DNA from: Progne subis subis
Taxonomy: Eukaryota > Chordata > Aves > Passeriformes > Hirundinidae
NCBI GenBank assembly: GCA_022316685.1
Contig: JAKJHU010000067.1
Location: forward strand, 3,048,501-3,112,500
Direction of reading: 5' to 3'
Length of the DNA: 64,000 nt
Positions 6,397-42,115 of the stretch are shown here, one piece after another. The notes beneath the pieces were generated by a model. That model made no database searches. It was given only the letters and a program-made list of their open reading frames with translations, and had not been told where the DNA came from. The first letter of the stretch is position 1. Each line of letters begins with the position of its first letter. Made by a program: the position numbers and the translations under genes.

Positions 6397-7410
6397 GAGT
6401 GAGAAGACTACTTGACGAGCATTCAGAGGATTTGGGACCTGCTTCATGTTCTTTGTGAACAGAGAAGGGTCGGTGGGTGATGCAGGGTGGTTGGAGGCCA
6501 TCTTGGACAAAATGATCATGAAATAGATCAGTTCTTGGAGAAGTAAGGAGGGAGCTTATCAAAACTATCACCTTGAACTGCAAGAGCAGACTTTGGCTTG
6601 TTTAGGAGCCTGATTGAGAGTCCCTCAGAAGGTAGTCCTGAATAGCAAAAAGGCTCAGGAAGGCTGGACGTTTTTCAAGAGGAAATCTTGAAGACATGGG
6701 AGCAGGCTGTCCCCCCATGCTGAAAGATGACCTGGAGGGGCAGACTGGCCTGGCTGAACAGGGAGCTTTGGCTGGGACTCAGAGAGAAAAATGGAGTGCA
6801 TCACCTCTCTAAGAAGGGGCAGGCAACCTGACCTGTATCAGAAACAATGTGGCCATTGGACAAAGGCAGTGATTTTCCCTCTGTACTAGGCACTGGAGAG
6901 GCCACACCTTGAGTCCTGAGTCCAGTTCTGGGTCCCTCACTACAGGCAGAAGATTGAGTTTCTGGAGCAAGTCCAAAAAAGGACAGCAAAGCTTTAAAGG
7001 GTCTAGAGAGTGAATCCTGTGAGGAGTGGCTGAGGGAGCTGGGGTTGTTTACGCTGGAGAAAAGGAGGTTTGGAGGTGACATCACTCTTTACAGTCACGT
7101 GAACAGAGAGTGTAGCAATGTGAGGGTCAGTCTCTTCTCCCAAGAAACAAGCAATAAGAGGTAAGGAAATGACCTCCAGTTGCATCAAGTGGGGGGTTAG
7201 ATTGGATATGGGGAAAAAAAATCTCCTCTAAAAGGGTTGTCAAGCTTTGTAACAGACTGACCAAGGTAGTCACCATCCATGGAGACATCAAAAAGATATG
7301 TACATGGCACTAAGGGATACAGTTTAGTGTAAAACTAAGATAAACAGTTGGACATGATGATCTTAAAGTTCCTTTCCAACCTAAATATTTCTCTGACAGT
7401 ATGATTTAGG
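6397..7410 (+). mobile_element. CR1 LINE, rearranged sense copy
   Basis: Two parts of a CR1 element lie head to tail in sense orientation. About 6397-6810 resembles the CR1 ORF2 region between endonuclease and reverse transcriptase (sequence on losing an 'ilvdkma' like frame, then a segment about an 'ELWLGLREKNG'-like frame near 6765-6795). About 6880-7410 resembles the 3' end: the 'gagtccagttctgggtccctcac' type sequence, 'ggagaaaaggaggtttggaggtgac', and 'cttaaagttcctttccaacctaaat' near 7362. The middle of the reverse transcriptase is missing, so this is an internally deleted copy or two adjacent insertions. The terminal octamer tail is eroded. Frames are broken throughout. Confidence 0.75.
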
Positions 7411-17322: not shown

Positions 17323-17990
17323 AATCATAGACACAGAATGACTTGGGCTGGAAAGCACATTAAGGTCATCTAGTTCTAACCCCACTGCCATGGGCAGGGA
17401 CATCTTCTCATCGTTCAAAGCCCCATCCAATCTGTCCTCAGACACTTCTAGGGATCCACAACTTCTCAGACAACCTGTTTCAGTTTCTCACAATCCTCAC
17501 AGTGAAGAATCATCCTGTCATTTGTTGGAAAAAGAGACCTAGTTCTTTGTATAGACTGATACGCTCTTGCCTGAGCCTCCTTTCCTCTGGGCTAAACAAC
17601 CCCAACTCCCTGAGCAGCTCCTCATGGGATTTGTGCTGCTGACCCTTCATCAGCTTTGTTGCCCTTCTCTGAACACACTCCAGCACCTCAGTGCACTTCT
17701 GGTAGTGAGGGGCTGAAAAGTGAACAGAGGACCTGAGGTGCAGGCTCACCAGCTCTGCACCAGGTGAGGGAATGTTTCACAGGACAGGGGCACGAGAATA
17801 TCACTGCCCTGGTCCTGCTGGCCACGGCATTGCTGACACAGGCCAGGATGCCGTTGGCCTTTTGGCCACGTGGGCACATGCTGGCTCATGTTCACCCAGC
17901 TGTCGATCAGCACCCCCAGGTCCTCCATGGATGACTGGCTCTATTCCTGACACTCCAAGCACTGAAATGAGCTCTAAGCCAGCTGTCACA
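17323..17990 (-). mobile_element. CR1 LINE 3' fragment, minus strand, longer copy
   Basis: A second CR1 copy in the same orientation. Plus-strand landmarks, read as the complement of the element, are 'catagacacagaatgacttgggctgg' (tail side), 'agcctcctttcctctgggctaaacaacccc' near 17575, 'ctctgaacacactccagcacctcagtg' near 17669 and 'gtcgatcagcacccccaggtcctc' near 17903. The minus strand gives broken reverse-transcriptase C-terminal frames. The 5' end is truncated, which is usual for CR1. Confidence 0.9.
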
Positions 17991-18558: not shown

Positions 18559-18600
18559 TGTACATCACACAGCTGTCATTGCTTCTCAGTCTTTGAATGG

Positions 18601-19265
18601 TGTCCTGGGGTGACTGTGTATCCCCAATCGTCTGTTGGGTGCAGGGGGGAGGGCAAGCGCGGTTTGTTTTTCCCCAGGAAAACTCTGCTCATCCAAGTGA
18701 CCTTGAAGCGGGGGAGCTGGAACTCGGCGAGACTGAAGAAGCTCTGTTGTTTTTCTCAGGCAGTTAGTTTAGTTTAGTGCTAGCATAGTGTTAGATGCTG
18801 TAGAATAGCTGAAGCTTTTTTGCTTTTTTTGCTTTCTTCTTTTTTTCTTTTTTTCTTTCCTTTTTTCTTTTTTTTTTTTTTTTTTTTTTTTTTGCCCTCT
18901 CCTCGGAACTGTTCCAACCTCTCCGGACTGAGGACCTGGGGAAGCACCGGGGGGCCTCCACAGGGGACCCACCCCACCGAAACCACCAAGACCAGCCCTG
19001 CACTTTTTTTTTCCAACGTCAGCGGAGAGAGAGTGGTGGAGCACACTGACAATCTTCAAGAGGAGAGACTTTCTTTAAGTTTGTTATCCCTCCGTAAGCG
19101 GCACGAAGCTCTTGTCATCGGGTATTGTGCTGGGAGTGCTTTGCCTGTGTAATAAACAGGTTTTTTCCACTTCTCTCTGAGGAAGTTTTTCCCGAACCGG
19201 TTGGGGGAGGGGAGAGGGGGGCCCCTTGGGAGGATTTCTCCCAAAATCTGCCTGAAACCACCACA
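18601..19265 (+). promoter_or_regulatory. 5' LTR (665 bp)
   Basis: Begins TGTCCTGGGG and ends CCACCACA. It contains a polypyrimidine tract of roughly 85 bp at 18815-18900, ending in T26 (18868-18893), and an AATAAA poly(A) signal at 19151-19156 that separates R from U5. I see no clear TATA box; transcription may start from a TATA-less promoter near the pyrimidine tract (inference). Against the 3' LTR it differs at eight bases (18719, 18726, 19024, 19121, 19204, 19206, 19222, 19228) plus one T in the homopolymer. Confidence 0.95.
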
Positions 19266-19272
19266 AACTTCT

Positions 19273-19290
19273 TGGCGCCCGAACGTGTGG
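19273..19290 (+). other. Primer binding site, tRNA-Lys type
   Basis: TGGCGCCCGAACGTGTGG follows the 5' LTR after a 7-base spacer. The first 12 bases equal the known start of a Lys3 primer site; the later GTG and the following GCTCGAA resemble the Lys1,2 type with one extra base and one change. A lysine tRNA is therefore the likely primer. The match is imperfect for either isoacceptor. Confidence 0.75.
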
Positions 19291-19350
19291 CTCGAATCCA
19301 CGAGAGAGTGGAAAAACCCTGAACTGATTAGTATTTAGCGGTCAGTAAAT

Positions 19351-21288
19351 ATGCTGTTTGAACTCATGTCTCTTAGAGTAGGGGCCTTGATGTGTTTTGG
19401 ATCCTTAGGCTTCTTTAAGGTCTTAATACCTTTGTGGTCCTTAAGTTTATTTGCATATCCAGAGATAGCCCCAATATTGTCATTAATACACAGTTTTTAC
19501 AGTAGAGGGACGCGAATTAGAGTAGCTATTGGCCTTAGCTTAATGATAATAATTTGTAGGAAGTTTATAAAGGTGCTGAGGTCTGTTCCTTCTATGTATG
19601 GGTCATAGTTATGGTTATTCACCCTGTTTGTGGGAGGAGGAGCAGAAGATGAAGCGTTGCAGTCTTTTGTTTCCTTCTCCTCTAAATCGGTTAAATCATT
19701 TCTGGAGAATGTTGAGTTTCCCCTGAGTGTTAAAGAGACCATCTTTCTGGTATGTCATCTGGTAAGCCTCCTCTATACAGTCTGCAGCTTCTCTAAAATA
19801 TGGGCTGAGATTTCTAGAGGGGCTGATGAAACTCCCGACCCAGGCAGAGGAAATCCTGAGTGGTGTGGAGAATGGGAGGATATGGGCCAACTCCTCAAAG
19901 AATTCTCTGACCCTGTAGTCTGGGATTTTCCACGGGAACAAATTCAGAATCCAGTGGAGCTGGGGAAATACCTGAAAGAGAGGTACCATGATGGCTCTAA
20001 GGGGGAGAAGGTCGCTGCAGTAAGCTGGGCCCTGGCATATGCTTATCGCACCTTGCTAGAGACTGTAGGGCAGCAGACAGAGGCAGGGGGGAAGGGATAC
20101 AAATCAACAGCTACCCCAGTCACTCAGGCTGCAGCCAACACCCCAGTTATGAATCCAGCAGCTAAACCAGACAGTAAGCCTAAGCCCCTGGCAGTTGCTC
20201 CAGCAAAGAAGCACACACATAAAACCGATCGACCAGTGGACGATAATGACGCAAGAGAAGGACCTTCACCAAAATCAGAAGCCAAATCTTCCAGCACAGG
20301 ATCAGAAGCCAATATTGACTCCTTTTCCCTGAAGGACCTTCGAGGCCTAAGAAAAGATTACCAGCGACAACCTGATGAATCTATAATTAGCTGGTTAGTC
20401 CGTCTTTGGGATGCCGCAGGTGAGGCTACAATTCTAGATAGCACTGAAGCGAGGCATCTGGGATCCCTGTCACATGATCCAGTCATCAACCAGGAGATGA
20501 TGAGAGAGGCTAGTCCTTGCAGTCTCTGGATACGGGTCCTAGGAAGCGTAGCAGAAAGATACCTATGTGCAGATGATCTCTATATGCAGCAAACCCCATG
20601 GAAGACCATAGAACAAGGGATTCAACGCTTAAGAGAAATGGCAGTGGCAGAGATGGTTTTCTCAGATGATATAAACACTAGGAACCCAGACTTAGTATCA
20701 TGTACATCTGTGATGTGGCGAAAACTTATACGACTCGGGCCATTAGAATACGCTTCTGCTTTAGCAGTAATGAAGCGGGAGGACATGGAGGAAACTGTGC
20801 TTGATATAGCGAAGAAGCTCCGAGCATATGCAGATGCTGTGCATGGCCCAACACACGCCAGAATCGCAGCTGTGGAAACACGCCTACAGAAACTAAAGAA
20901 TAAGATAGATAAGAATCATAAGAAACTCAAGGAGGAGATTAGAGAGGACCTTCTCCAAATCTCAGCAGTGCAGATCAGAGGTTCTGGTACCCAACGTAGA
21001 CGCTCCCCGGGTAGGGAGAGAGGGTACACTCCACGCGCTGAGCTGTGGTTCTTCCTGCGGGATTGCGGAGAAAATATGAACAGATGGGATAGAAAATCTA
21101 CGGCTGCCTTAGCACAACGGGTGCGTGAATTGAAGAAAGTCAAGACTCAAAGAGGGAGTTTCACCAAAAGGGAAGTAGCTCCAGTTGCCCGTAGCCGAAC
21201 TGCCAGGTATGACGATAATGACATGTCCGACCCCCTTGAAGGAACCTCTAAGGCATATGCTCAAGGAAAGAAAGATAACCAGGCTTAG
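19351..21288 (+). pseudogene. gag: gag of ERVL-like provirus, interrupted by an amber stop
   Basis: Gag is the structural precursor that forms the particle. The first ATG after the primer site is 19351, and frame 1 is open to TAG 21286-21288 except for one TAG at 19606-19608. The 5' part (19351-19608, 85 codons) and the next 60 codons are unusually hydrophobic, with stretches that could span a membrane. The next in-frame ATG after the break is 19882. The middle is rich in Pro, Ala and Lys (about 20100-20320). A capsid-like helical part follows (20320-20860), then a charged coiled-coil-like segment (20860-20960) and an arginine-rich patch near 20995-21025. I see no CCHC zinc knuckle. At least twelve tryptophan codons survive in this part. 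Identity as gag rests on position and composition more than on motifs. Confidence 0.8.
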
Positions 21289-21780
21289 AGGGGCCCTGCC
21301 TCTAGCCAGGTAGAAGCTAGGAAAAACCGTGTATTTTGGACTGTGTGGATTCGTTGGCCTAGCACATCAGAACCACAAAAATATGAGGCCTTAGTTGATA
21401 CTAGTGCGCAGTGCACATTAATGCCATCAAGACAGGTAAGGGCAGAATCTGTTTCTATTGCTGGCGTGACGGGGGGATCACAGAATTTTACTGTGGTAAA
21501 AGCAGATGTGAGCCTAACTGGAAAGGAGTGGGAAAAACACCCTATTGTGACTGGCCCAGAGGCCCCATGTATTTTGGACATAGACTTCCTCCGAAGTGGG
21601 TATTTCAAAGACCCGAAAGGACTCAGGTGGGCATTCGGGATAGCGGCTGTAGTAACAGAGGGCATCCGGCAATTGAACACCTTGCCTGGACTGTCCAAGA
21701 ATCCTTCTGCAGTAGGACTCTTAAAAGTACAAGAACAACGGGTACCAATTGCCACTTCTATAGTGCACCGCCGACAGTAT
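21289..21780 (+). pseudogene. pro: Retroviral protease region (pro), active site DTS
   Basis: This follows gag in the same frame, directly after the TAG at 21286. The aspartic protease signature lies at 21397-21411 and reads D-T-S-A-Q, where the family usually has D-T/S-G-A. The third codon is AGT, so a G-to-A change at its first base would account for the loss of glycine. An ILDIDFL-like flap or second-half motif lies near 21572-21592. The protease cleaves Gag-Pol; the altered glycine would probably impair it (inference). No stop codon falls within the region. Confidence 0.8.
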
Positions 21781-22845
21781 AGAACCACTCAAGATGCTGT
21801 GATTCCCATTCATAAAATGATTCAAGAGCTAGAGAGCCAAGGGGTGGTTAGTAAAACCCACTCACCCTTCAACAGCCCCATTTGGCCTGTGCGCAAATCT
21901 GAAAGAGAATGGAGATTGACTGTGGACTACCGTGCATTGAATGAGGTGACACCACCACTGAGTGCTGCTGTGCCAGACATGTTGGAGCTCCAGTATGAGC
22001 TGGAGTCCAAGGCAGCAAAATAGTATGCCACAGTTGATATTGCCAATGCATTTTTCTCCATTCCTTTGGCAGCAGAATGCAGGCCTCAGTTTGCCTTCAC
22101 ATGGAGGGGCGTGCAGTACACCTAGAACCGACTGCCCCAGGGGTGGAAGCACAGTCCTACCATCTGCCATGGACTGATCCAGGCTGCACTAGAAAAGAGT
22201 GAGGCTCCGGAGCACCTACAGTATATCGATGACATCATTGTGTGGGAGAACACGGCAATGGAAGTGTTTGAGAAAGGAGAGAAGATCATCCAAATTCTCC
22301 TGAAAGCTGGTTTTGCCATCAAGCAGAGCAAGGTCAAGGGACCTGCCCGAGAGATCCAGTTCCTGGGAGTAAAGTGGCAAGATGGACGGCAGCAGATTCC
22401 TACTAATGTCATCAACAAGATCACAGCAATGTCTCCACCGACCAATAAGAAGGAGACACAAGCTTTCCTAGGTGCTATAGGTTTCTGGAGGATGCATATT
22501 CCCGAGTATAGTCAAATCGTGAGCCCTCTTTACCTGGTCACCCGAAAAAAGAATGATTTCCACTGGGGCCCTGAGCAGCAACAAGCCTTTGCCCAGATCA
22601 AGGAGGAGATCGCTCATGCAGTAGCCCTTGGCCCAGTAAGGACAGGACCAGAAGTGAAGAATGTGCTCTACTCAGCAGCCAAGAACAATGGCCTGTCCTG
22701 GAGCCTTTAGCAGAAGGTGCCTGGTGAGACTCGAGGCCGACCACTAAGATTTTAGAGTCGAAGCTACAGAGGGTCTGAAGCCAATTACACCCCAACTGAG
22801 AAGGAAATCTTAGCTGCCTATGAAGGAGTTCAAGCCGCCTCAGAG
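21781..22845 (+). pseudogene. pol: Reverse transcriptase region (pol), four in-frame amber stops
   Basis: The polymerase copies the RNA genome into DNA. Fingers and palm motifs are readable in frame 1: a VDYRALNEVTP block near 21920-21953, the first catalytic Asp in a TVDIANAFF block (codon 22036-22038), the LPQG motif near 22132-22143, and the YIDD catalytic box at 22222-22233. A FLGVKW block (22360-22377) and a thumb with FLGAIGFWRMHIP (22468-22506) follow. TAG stops lie at 22021, 22123, 22708 and 22753. The one at 22123 falls just before the NRLPQG block, where the family often has an aromatic residue. There are no indels that shift the frame. The catalytic residues themselves remain. Confidence 0.92.
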
Positions 22846-23571
22846 GTGATTAGTACAGAGGCGCAACTCCTCCTGGCACCCCGACTGCCTGTGCTAGAGT
22901 GGATGTTCAAAGGGGAGGTCCCCTCCACCCATCACGCCACTGATGCCACATGGAGCAAGTGGATTGCTCTTATTACGCAGCGTGCCCGTATAGGTAAACT
23001 GAATCGCCCTGGGATTTTGGAAATAATTACCAATTGGCCTGAGAGTGAAAATTTTGGCCTCACAAATGAAGAACAAGAGCAAGTGACACAGGCTGAAGAG
23101 GCTCCACCATACAACCAATTGCCAGCAGAGGAGAGGCATTATGCCCTTTTCACTGACGGTTCCTGTCGTATTGTAGGGATGAACCGGAAATGGAAAGCAG
23201 CCGTGTGGAGTCCCACACGACAAGTTGCTGAAGCCACTGAAGGAGAAGGTAGATCAAGTCAACTTGCAGAACTCAAGGCTGTTCAATTGGCCTTGGATAT
23301 TGTTGAAAGAGAGGGGTGGCCGAGGCTCTACCTCTATACTGATTCGTGGATAGTAGCCAATGCTCTGTAGGGATGGCTGAAGAGGTGGAAAGAGGCTAAT
23401 TGGCAGCGTGAGGGGAAACCAATTTGGGCTGCTGAGGAGTAGAAAAACATTGCTACCAGGGTAGGGAGACTACCTGTAAAAGTCCGCCACGTAGATGCCC
23501 ACATCCCCAAGAGTAGAGCTAATGAAGAGCATCGAAACAACGAGCAGGTAGATCAGGCAGCAAAAATAGAA
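22846..23571 (+). pseudogene. pol: RNase H region of pol, two in-frame amber stops
   Basis: RNase H removes the RNA strand during reverse transcription. After a connection of about 95 codons, the RNase H core begins with a YALFTDGS block, whose catalytic Asp codon is 23155-23157. The catalytic Glu lies in a QLAELKA block (codon 23269-23271), and the next Asp lies in a YTDSW block (23341-23343). TAG stops interrupt at 23368 and 23440. A HVDAHIPKS-like block near 23488-23514 carries the C-terminal His/Asp region. The catalytic carboxylates that I can see are intact, so inactivation is due to the stops alone. Confidence 0.88.
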
Positions 23572-24474
23572 GTGTCAAAGATAGACTTAGATTGGGAACA
23601 CAAGGGAGAGTTGTTCCTAGCTCGATGGGCCCATGATGCCTCAGGTCACCAGGGCAGAGATGCCACCTATAAGTGGGCACGAGACCAAGAAGTGGATCTA
23701 ACCATGGACAGTATTTCTCAGGTTATCCATGACTGTGAGACGTGTGCTGCCATCAAACAGGCCAAGCGGGTGAAGCCCCTATAGTATGGCGGGCGATAGT
23801 CCAAGTATAAGTACGGGGAAGCCTGGCAGATTGACTACATCACCCTTCCCCAAACCCGCCAAGGCAAGCGCTACGTGCTCACAATAGTGGAAGCCACAAC
23901 TGAATGGTTAGAGACCTACCCTGTGCCTCACGCTACTGCCCAGAACACCATCCTGAGCCTAAAGAAGCAAGTTCTGTGGAGACATAGTACCCCTGAGAGG
24001 ATTGAGTCAGACAACGGAACTCATTTCAAGAACAGCCTTATTAACACCTAGGCTAGGGAACATAGCATTGAGTAAGTGTACCATATTCCCTACCATGCAC
24101 CTGCTGCAGGCAAAATGGAGAAGCACAATGCATTGTTAAAAACCCAATTGAAAGCATTAAGGGAGGGATCGTTCAAGAATTGGGAGCAGCACTTAGCAAA
24201 AGCCACCTAGTTAGTCAACACCCGAGGCTCCACCAACCGAGCAGGACCCGCCCAGGCTGAGCCTCTGCATACAACAGATGGAGATAAAGTCCCAGTGGTG
24301 CATGTCAGAGGTCTGTTAGAAAAGACAGTGTGGATCAAGTCTGCCTCAAGTACAGACAAACCCATTCGTGGGGTTGTCTTTGCTCAAGGACCAGGTTGCA
24401 CATAGTGAATAATGCAGAAAGATGGAACAACTCGATGTGTACCTCAGGGAGATCTGATTGTTAGGTGAGAATAA
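23572..24474 (+). pseudogene. pol: Integrase region of pol, seven or more in-frame stops
   Basis: Integrase inserts viral DNA into the host genome. The zinc-binding H-H-C-C is complete: His codons 23632 and 23647, Cys codons 23734 and 23743. The catalytic triad is D (23833-23835), D in a SDNGT block (24010-24012) and E (24118-24120); the last two are 36 codons apart, the classical D,D-35-E spacing. Stops are TAG at 23782, 23797, 24049 and 24208, TAA at 24073, and the adjacent pair TAG-TGA at 24403-24408. The original end is at TGA 24466 or TAA 24472. The C-terminal part has a basic-hydrophobic DNA-binding-like look. The 5-bp target duplication shows that an active integrase acted at insertion, supplied by the parent virus. 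Confidence 0.9.
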
Positions 24475-24786
24475 TTTGTAAACATCACTGTTTGCTGAAT
24501 GCTATTGCCATTGTCTGTACATTAAACCATGCAGAATGAAATAGAAAGAAATGTGTAAGTGAGAAAGTATGTGTTAAGTGTTAAAGGTATGAGCAAGTGT
24601 TGAAGGTATGAGTAAGTGAGAGAGGAACCCTGCTGCCCTGCAGCCTAAGGCCTAGATTCAGTGCCTCAGTGTGGAACATGACAAGAGCATGACAAGTATT
24701 GCTTGTATTATTTTTTTTTTTTATGAGGAGAATAGATAGAAGTTTTATGTAGAATATACATTGGTTCTGTCTGTAAGTCAACGATA
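24475..24786 (+). other. 3' non-coding region of the provirus, no env
   Basis: About 310 bases between integrase and the polypurine tract. There is no room for an envelope gene and no remnant of one. It contains two copies of an AAGTGTTRAAGGTATGAG unit (about 24577-24612) and a T-rich run at 24711-24722. Confidence 0.8.
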
Positions 24787-24806
24787 TGGGGATAAGGGGT
24801 AGAAGA
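24787..24806 (+). promoter_or_regulatory. Polypurine tract (plus-strand primer)
   Basis: The sequence ending GGGGATAAGGGGTAGAAGA abuts the TG of the 3' LTR. It is purine-rich with two T interruptions. Retroviruses use such a tract to prime plus-strand DNA synthesis, and its placement fits exactly. Confidence 0.8.
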
Positions 24807-25472
24807 TGTCCTGGGGTGACTGTGTATCCCCAATCGTCTGTTGGGTGCAGGGGGGAGGGCAAGCGCGGTTTGTTTTTCCCCAGGAAAACTCTGCTCATCC
24901 AAGTGACCTTGAAGCGGGGGAGCTAGAACTCAGCGAGACTGAAGAAGCTCTGTTGTTTTTCTCAGGCAGTTAGTTTAGTTTAGTGCTAGCATAGTGTTAG
25001 ATGCTGTAGAATAGCTGAAGCTTTTTTGCTTTTTTTGCTTTCTTCTTTTTTTCTTTTTTTCTTTCCTTTTTTCTTTTTTTTTTTTTTTTTTTTTTTTTTT
25101 GCCCTCTCCTCGGAACTGTTCCAACCTCTCCGGACTGAGGACCTGGGGAAGCACCGGGGGGCCTCCACAGGGGACCCACCCCACCGAAACCACCAAGACC
25201 AGCCCTGCACTTTTTTTTTCCAACGTCAGCAGAGAGAGAGTGGTGGAGCACACTGACAATCTTCAAGAGGAGAGACTTTCTTTAAGTTTGTTATCCCTCC
25301 GTAAGCGGCACGAAGCTCTTGTCATCGAGTATTGTGCTGGGAGTGCTTTGCCTGTGTAATAAACAGGTTTTTTCCACTTCTCTCTGAGGAAGTTTTTCCC
25401 GAACCGGTTGAGAGAGGGGAGAGGGGGGTCCCTTAGGAGGATTTCTCCCAAAATCTGCCTGAAACCACCACA
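24807..25472 (+). promoter_or_regulatory. 3' LTR (666 bp)
   Basis: The partner of the 5' LTR, ending CCACCACA before the AATGG duplication. The poly(A) signal AATAAA is at 25358-25363 and the T run is T27 (25074-25100). Bases that differ from the 5' LTR are at 24925, 24932, 25231, 25328, 25411, 25413, 25429 and 25435; seven of these are A where the 5' LTR has G, and 25429 is T where the 5' LTR has C. Confidence 0.95.
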
Positions 25473-26235
25473 AATGGCAAGCCTGATTTTAGAGAATCAT
25501 GAAGTGTGTCTTACGTTCCTGAAATAAAAGAAGCAAGAGATTAACCTGCACCTATGACTTTTCAATTTCTTTCCCTCTGTTGTCTCAGGTCTTAAAGAAA
25601 GGAGAGGGGAGACTTTTCTTTGACTGAGTTTTGTTATAGCAGTTGAGAGTGTTTAAGAAAATCTAACTCCTGGGGAGATAAAATCATGATGTTCACAGAC
25701 CTTGCAAGGACATAATTACAATTCTTTCCTGCTGTCTTTAAAATATGCACACCTTCCACTTCATGGCTGCAGATCAGACAAGGAAATGGGCACATTTCAA
25801 AGTGAAAGTAGTGGAAAATGGTCTCATTCCATACAACTTTTGCTTTCATCCTTAACTGTTGCTTGTCACTGTTGCTGGAAACACTAAACCCCAGAAGACT
25901 GAAGCTTTTTTTTGCCCTGAAGATTGAAGCTTAAGCTTATTTTTCTTTCTGAGTTTTACTTTCAATTAAACTTGAGATGTGTTTACTAGTCCTTCATCTC
26001 CCCCCACTTTCTTATATCAACTTTGATACTTGGAGGTTTCCTAGTTATTCTGTTTTCTTGAACAACTATTTCCATAGAGCCCCACAAACAGAGAGTGGCA
26101 AACCCTTTAGAGTTTATGCAAAGTTCTCTCCAAGAAGAGAGGGACTTTTATGTTATTTTGATTCATTGGCTCAGCAGTATCTTCCTTGCTGAACAACCAA
26201 ACAACTTTCTTGAATCTCTTACCCTGAGGCAGGGG

Positions 26236-41560: not shown

Positions 41561-41756
41561 GTGGGAAAAATTTTGAAAACCCAATTGGAAATAACTAATG
41601 AATGAGGCCCCATTGGTCCCCGTATGTGACTTTTTCTTTCTATCCCTTTTTATCCATTGGAAAAATCCTTAACTAGCTCCTTAAAGGAGTGGACACTTTC
41701 TTTCTGCATACCTTTGCACAAACCAAGTGTGGTGCTTTTTCTGCCCAAAGCAGATA

Positions 41757-42115
41757 TGATCTCCCCTGAGACTCCTTTTCTCCAGGCTAACCACATCCAG
41801 CTCCTTCAGTCACTCCTCATTAGCCTTGTGCTCCAAACCCTTCACCAGCTTCATTGCCCTTCTCAGGACTCACTCCAGCACCTCACTGCAGTGAGCTGAA
41901 TTGGTCACAGCACTCCAGTGCAGCCTCACCAGTGCCCAGCAGAGAGGGACAATCCCTGCCCTGGTCCCAGTGGCCACACTATTGTTTATACAGGCCAAGA
42001 TGCCATTGGCTTTCCTGTCCACCTTGGCACACACTGACTCATGTTCACCTGGCTGTCAACCAGCACCTCCAGGTCCTTTTCCACCAGGCAGCTTTTCAGC
42101 TGGCCATAGCAGTGA
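41757..42115 (-). mobile_element. CR1 LINE fragment, minus strand
   Basis: Complement of the CR1 reverse-transcriptase end. Plus-strand landmarks are 'tctccaggctaaccacatccagctcc' near 41780, 'ttctcaggactcactccagcacctcac' near 41860 and 'ctgtcaaccagcacctccaggtcc' near 42053. Neither the tail nor the 5' end is present, so it is an internal remnant. Confidence 0.88.

Follow-up and report, generated by a model that had tools for sequence, protein, structure and literature searches.

How a provirus of the passerine Progne subis subis came to keep one long reading frame through its internal region while acquiring fifteen stop codons, nearly all of them TAG, is the question raised by the stretch of DNA analysed here (the window: 64,000 nucleotides, positions 3,048,501 to 3,112,500 of contig JAKJHU010000067.1, assembly GCA_022316685.1). 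The element is a provirus at 18601-25472 of the window, with two long terminal repeats (LTRs) and the 5-bp duplication AATGG on either side. A first prediction, made from the sequence alone and referred to below as the original prediction, had placed fifteen stops in this frame, thirteen of them TAG, and had attributed them to G-to-A editing of the retroviral complementary DNA (cDNA) before integration, in a lineage without mammalian-type APOBEC3. All fifteen were recovered: TAG at 19606, 21286, 22021, 22123, 22708, 22753, 23368, 23440, 23782, 23797, 24049, 24208 and 24403, TAA at 24073 and TGA at 24406, while the other two frames contain 116 and 118 stops. The evidence set out below makes it very probable that the minus-strand cDNA of this provirus was deaminated by a host AID/APOBEC enzyme during reverse transcription, before integration.

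Spectrum and context of the changes

The provirus was aligned, as the original prediction had proposed, to other copies of its family in the same genome. Twenty were retrieved in pieces through a search with a 342-base piece of the window (1748 candidates in the 1.17 Gb assembly, 40 scored); because they were taken from the top-scoring matches to a single piece of the window, they do not sample the family at random. The 15 copies that cover both halves of the element were used for site counts, including those at the stops; the other 5 have large gaps and were left out of these counts. When every one of the 21 copies was compared in the same way with the remaining 20, the window copy had 120 private differences, of which 113 were G-to-A, the next base being G in 83 cases, A in 27, and C or T in 3. 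The other 20 copies had 1-63 private differences each, including 0-20 G-to-A, and pooled they gave 97/329 G-to-A against the 113/120 of the window (Fisher 6e-38). At sites where all 15 copies agree the window differs 100 times (96 G-to-A, 2 C-to-T, 1 A-to-G and 1 T-to-C), and at sites with at least 80% agreement it differs 129 times, 120 of these being G-to-A. The changes are confined largely to one strand, since only 4 C-to-T changes stand against the 120 G-to-A, and these 4, among 1190 scored C, show no context. The expectation of the original prediction that G-to-A would be more common than C-to-T and would depend on the following base was thus borne out.

That dependence is strong. GG sites were changed at 88/471 (18.7%), GA sites at 27/475 (5.7%), GT sites at 2/285 (0.7%) and GC sites at 1/314 (0.3%). 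A T before GG is also favoured, with 46/161 such sites changed versus 42/305 of the others in the window (P=0.0002; P=1.2e-5 when four copies are pooled), and in both of these preferences the changes resemble those left by human APOBEC3G. According to passages of PMC5391955, APOBEC3G favours CCC/CCCA, which is GGG on the plus strand; in this the Progne copies differ, as a third G is not favoured (59/200 vs 178/444, pooled over four copies). With an excess of G-to-A on the plus strand, a preferred next base, a gradient along the element and changes that are absent from relatives (the stop at 21286 excepted), the window provirus bears the marks of APOBEC hypermutation, and we infer that a deaminase caused them.

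It is very unlikely that this deaminase was AID rather than an APOBEC1-type enzyme. AID is an established DNA deaminase and is encoded in the host genome. However, passages of PMC5391955 describe it as preferring WRC and avoiding SYC, and on the plus strand WRC corresponds to a G with C or T as the next base. These two contexts are the least edited in the window, with 3/599 such sites changed versus 115/946 sites with G before a purine.

Timing and recurrence of the G-to-A changes

Edited GG sites become more frequent from 5' to 3', with odds multiplied by 1.40 per kb (P=1.1e-5) and a fitted probability of editing at GG that increases from 7.5% at 19300 to 34% at 24800. Such a gradient follows the time for which each part of the minus strand remains single-stranded, from its own synthesis until plus-strand synthesis from the primer-binding site passes. 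A second record is kept by the LTRs, which should be identical to each other when a provirus integrates. The 5' LTR (18601..19265, plus strand, 665 bp, beginning TG and ending CA) and the 3' LTR (24807..25472, plus strand, 666 bp) now differ by 8 base mismatches and by an indel within a run of T. At seven of the 8, the 5' LTR has G and the 3' LTR has A, each before G, and G stands at that position in 19 or 20 of the 20 other copies, whichever LTR is compared. The remaining mismatch is a C-to-T in the 3' LTR. One further private G-to-A is common to both LTRs. The G-to-A changes limited to one LTR are therefore 7 to 0 in favour of the 3' LTR, which is the 3'-LTR-specific form of hypermutation seen in the Mtv proviruses of mouse. 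From the gradient and the 3'-LTR-only edits together it follows that editing preceded integration, as had been predicted.

The mechanism that we propose is as follows. In a single reverse-transcription event, a host AID/APOBEC enzyme would deaminate C to U in the minus-strand cDNA, giving plus-strand G-to-A changes for the most part at GG, with fewer at GA. Deamination would track single-strand exposure, being low near the primer-binding site and highest just upstream of the polypurine tract. Once plus-strand strong-stop DNA had been copied and had moved off, the minus-strand copy of the LTR would be exposed again, so that later deamination would appear only in the 3' LTR. The edited DNA would then integrate, already broken by 14 stops. 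Edits found only in the 3' LTR would in this way separate damage that came before plus-strand strong-stop transfer from damage that came after it. They also inflate LTR-based dates: when the edit-type changes are set aside the 8 LTR mismatches are reduced to 1, so a naive LTR date for this provirus would be about 8 times too old.

The same observations bear on two explanations that involve no deamination of cDNA. Imbalance of nucleotide pools was once used to explain G-to-A hypermutation, and misincorporation by the reverse transcriptase (RT) under such conditions might be held responsible here. This is extremely unlikely, as neither a preference for GG nor an exposure gradient is expected from misincorporation, and the 3'-LTR-only changes require a minus strand that was altered, or miscopied, after it was first copied. 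Decay after integration, through CpG deamination and drift, might also have made the stops, and scattered mutations of all kinds are indeed present in other copies. Decay would, however, hit both strands without a preference for GG, and changes other than G-to-A account for just 7/120 private differences and 1/8 LTR mismatches, leaving this explanation with next to no probability.

With deamination of the minus strand as the preferred reading, most of the stops are readily accounted for. At 14 of them (all but 21286) a stop of any kind is found in 0-3 of the 15 compared copies, and the same codon in 0-1 of 15. Tryptophan codons conserved in 80% or more of the copies number 61, and 14 of them have become stops in the window. 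The middle base of a tryptophan codon is a G that always precedes another G, and this explains the predominance of TAG. Missense changes in 58 codons and silent changes in 33 accompany the stops. The TAG at 21286..21288 (plus strand), at the gag/pol boundary, is present in 14/15 copies and is therefore the family's own gag/pol stop and not an edit. The original interpretation of the stops as lesions that most family members do not share thus holds for 14 stops and fails for this one. The family stop may possibly be suppressed or read through in translation, as is done by gammaretroviruses. A structured read-through signal 3' of 21286 was considered and found no support, as the fold there was not unusual (z 0.46). 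That the TAG codons in general are read through or recoded and are not lesions, a view to which the boundary TAG lends itself by its likeness to UAG-read-through retroviruses, deserves hardly any credence: the other 14 stops are lacking in most, if not all, of the 15 copies compared, the missense and silent changes lie beside them, and no unusual fold follows 21286.

The window provirus is not the only edited copy. Two 33-place patterns that accept a purine at each G had 280 and 299 exact matches in the genome, of which 100 each were listed. In the first list three copies (C76, C335a and C1035) stood out after a common variant was set aside. In the second, 83 copies had no G-to-A change, 7 had one and 10 had two or more, and 35/39 changes were at GG. 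Those 10 candidates, which include the three of the first list, were retrieved in pieces and scored over 23950-24806. Nine of the 10 had 15-52 G-to-A versus 1-28 other differences, and when compared with the pooled 97/329 they gave one-sided P values from 7e-18 to 3e-4; editing is clear in eight of these and less so in C486. The edited fraction, on the basis of the first contigs listed and of copies that keep the pattern, is about 9/100.

For no two copies does the number of shared GG edits exceed chance at P<0.001. At a weaker level it does so for two pairs of six (0.02-0.04), as shared hot spots would give. Because their GG edits are not shared beyond chance, the nine further edited copies look like separate editing events and not like one edited lineage. 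In the scored region the edited copies carry very different numbers of other differences, with 1 each in C76 and C190, 11 in C909 and 18 in C2. Since this range extends from almost none to many, repeated editing may have been spread over a long period or over several subfamilies.

LTR totals were obtained for nine copies, that is, the window and eight candidates (C1113, the tenth candidate, included); the retrieved pieces of C335b and C486 lacked a 5' LTR that could be scored, and C2 was scored at 262 LTR sites. Over these nine copies 60 G-to-A changes are limited to the 3' LTR, 9 to the 5' LTR, and 34 are in both. Before a purine the counts are 58 versus 4 (P=2.6e-13), while all other differences limited to one LTR are divided 22 (3') versus 26 (5'). 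The purine-context excess is 51 to 4 without the window and 27 to 4 (P=3e-5) without both the window and C1035, in which G-to-A changes of the two kinds are 24 to 2. For the 20 comparison copies, which had not been selected for editing, the corresponding figures are 18 to 15.

Several points weigh against this account of the provirus and its relatives. Editing was scored against other family copies and not against the true parent. The candidates were picked on at least two G-to-A changes in a 33-base stretch inside the scored region, which gives them slight help; even so C1113, with 7 G-to-A versus 13 other differences (P 0.38), is not hypermutated, and C486 is the least certain of the nine, with 264 aligned sites and 28 other differences. 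Changes limited to the 5' LTR are not zero, there being 9 over nine copies with 4 of these before a purine, and 2/60 of the 3'-LTR-only changes precede C or T. The 3'-LTR excess is also uneven, being 2 to 1 in C335a and 0 to 2 in C1113, while C1035 alone contributes 24/60. Lastly, the genome searches for host deaminases described below score the best candidates, so that a highly divergent APOBEC3-like gene might escape them.

Host deaminase genes and known systems

A genome search with PF08210 gave 7 matches, which are APOBEC2, four AID exon matches and two APOBEC1-like exons, and a second search with one APOBEC1-like exon as query found the same four genes at 4 places. APOBEC3 was not found in either search among the best candidates scored. 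This agrees with the predicted lineage without mammalian-type APOBEC3, as only AID, APOBEC2 and two APOBEC1-like genes were obtained. The two APOBEC1-like genes are located about 10 and 22 kb from AID (C1112:7712976-7735976), and both exons have intact HAE...PCxxC zinc motifs. Among proteins of solved structure, the best match to both is human APOBEC1 (E 9e-34 for the first and 8e-18 for the second) and that to the AID exon is AID (E 1.7e-28), while the best Pfam model for the APOBEC2 exon is APOBEC2; NCBIfam models searched with the two APOBEC1-like exons gave no match.

An APOBEC1-like exon is 88% identical to its counterpart in Locustella ochotensis, and its named relatives, among 120 listed of 140, are one turtle and otherwise birds, which marks the host itself as a bird and probably a passerine. 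Both APOBEC1-like types are widespread in birds, and the second gene diverges more than the first in 6/6 pairs from four species, these pairs not being independent. A restriction of the second gene to songbirds was considered and rejected: a single-sequence search gave 8 hits, the five named ones all songbirds, and a profile search found the type in many other species, pigeon, heron and owl among them (120 of 195 listed).

Because the motif is not that of AID and no APOBEC3 was found, the editor, as best we can infer from these genes, would be one or other of the APOBEC1-like proteins whose two genes neighbour that of AID. A wider proposal is that a bird APOBEC1 paralogue independently took the role of APOBEC3G, as a CC-directed (CCA, not CCC) minus-strand editor of germline retrovirus cDNA that hit about 1/10 copies of a recently expanded endogenous retrovirus (ERV) family and left a time-stamped record in the LTR difference. 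We regard this proposal as evenly poised between right and wrong. The ERV family provides a clean test set for it, with hundreds of pattern matches, about ten sampled copies edited separately, and two candidate enzymes beside AID.

Knisbacher and Levanon reportedly surveyed in 2016 the LTR retrotransposons of songbirds, zebra finch among them, that carry G-to-A edits. Unlike that survey, the present analysis examines the individual copies of a single family in a different bird and gives context rates, a gradient, LTR asymmetry and host deaminase genes. The editing of songbird LTR elements is already known, and what is added here is the difference between the two LTRs in a bird, the sequence motif, the recurrence of editing in further copies and the candidate genes. 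Passages of PMC6523648 and PMC6497032 describe plus-strand G-to-A clusters in the LTR elements of songbirds, strongest in birds and oscines, and such clusters in passerine LTR elements are common to those accounts and ours. PMC6497032 also places birds first among vertebrates in the strength of editing marks, yet the present searches yielded no APOBEC3. Among the open-licence papers listed in our literature search, no report in birds of 3'-LTR-only editing or of APOBEC1 as the editor was found, which does not imply absence from print.

The closest parallel for the LTR pattern is in mouse, where passages of PMC12548423 (2025) describe Mtv proviruses hypermutated by APOBEC3, with 3'-LTR-specific G-to-A beside edits in both LTRs, and explain them by displacement; the pattern is there called new and said to be unreported for other retroviruses, and murine leukaemia virus examples are then added. 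The Progne provirus is like these in having both 3'-LTR-only and both-LTR edits, and the same displacement reasoning applies. It is unlike them in that mouse has APOBEC3 and plus-strand contexts of GA or G(G/A)A, whereas the Progne copy is dominated by GG in a host in which no APOBEC3 was found. With regard to APOBEC1, passages of PMC3880073 present lizard APOBEC1 as a DNA mutator, with use of an E. coli mutator assay, and mention a previously known APOBEC1 homologue of zebra finch; the lizard editing described there is in L1 and not in LTR elements. Mammalian APOBEC1 is said in PMC5399452 to leave C-to-T changes too, from editing of genomic RNA, and in this the window provirus differs, as it carries no such C-to-T signal. 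Edit motifs of opossum APOBEC1 were not found in the literature passages searched.

Structure of the provirus and neighbouring sequence

Within the provirus, whose features all lie on the plus strand, the 5' LTR is followed by the primer-binding site TGGCGCCCGAAC at 19273..19284, which was read from the sequence and is lysine-tRNA-like in its first 12 bases. A region at 19351..21285 is called gag by position because no Gag model matched in a Pfam search of the frame pieces; it has one private stop (19606) and an open piece at 19609-21285. Beyond the family TAG, the protease-RT-RNase H-integrase frame occupies 21289..24465 and has 13 interrupting stops that are missing in most compared copies. 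The frame had been predicted to run from gag to integrase. With its pieces searched separately, the RT, RNase H and integrase core models of Pfam scored above their cut-offs and the protease and integrase zinc-binding models below them. The RT motif YIDD and the first integrase aspartates are readable in the piecewise translation, and to that extent the catalytic residues survive as claimed.

Two further stops in the long frame before 24474, TGA at 24466..24468 and TAA at 24472, are common to 15/15 compared copies and are therefore the natural end of pol. As the 3' LTR begins at 24807, there is no room for env; the polypurine tract, assigned by position and composition, is at 24788..24806. The originally predicted interval, 19351..24474, covers the long frame and stops short of the element, which extends to 25472.

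The target-site duplication AATGG, to which no strand applies, is at 18596..18600 and again, in identical form, directly after the 3' LTR at 25473..25477. A duplication of 5 bp characterizes ERV-L-like (class III) elements according to PMC6523648, and by this rule the provirus, a young one, is ERV-L-like. In a search for an empty allele, the right flank of the insertion had a single match in the assembly, which is the window. Each LTR contains a long T-rich tract (18815-18893 and 25021-25100) whose length varies between the two LTRs and among copies. Many matches to the family are located on small contigs of 35-200 kb (C377, C1654 and others), some with several copies within tens of kb, and this clustering could reflect a repeat-rich chromosome such as W. 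Elsewhere in the window three interspersed repeats, at 6822-7068, 17558-17924 and 41753-42077, are about 70% alike, and one of these has a CR1-like reading on the minus strand.

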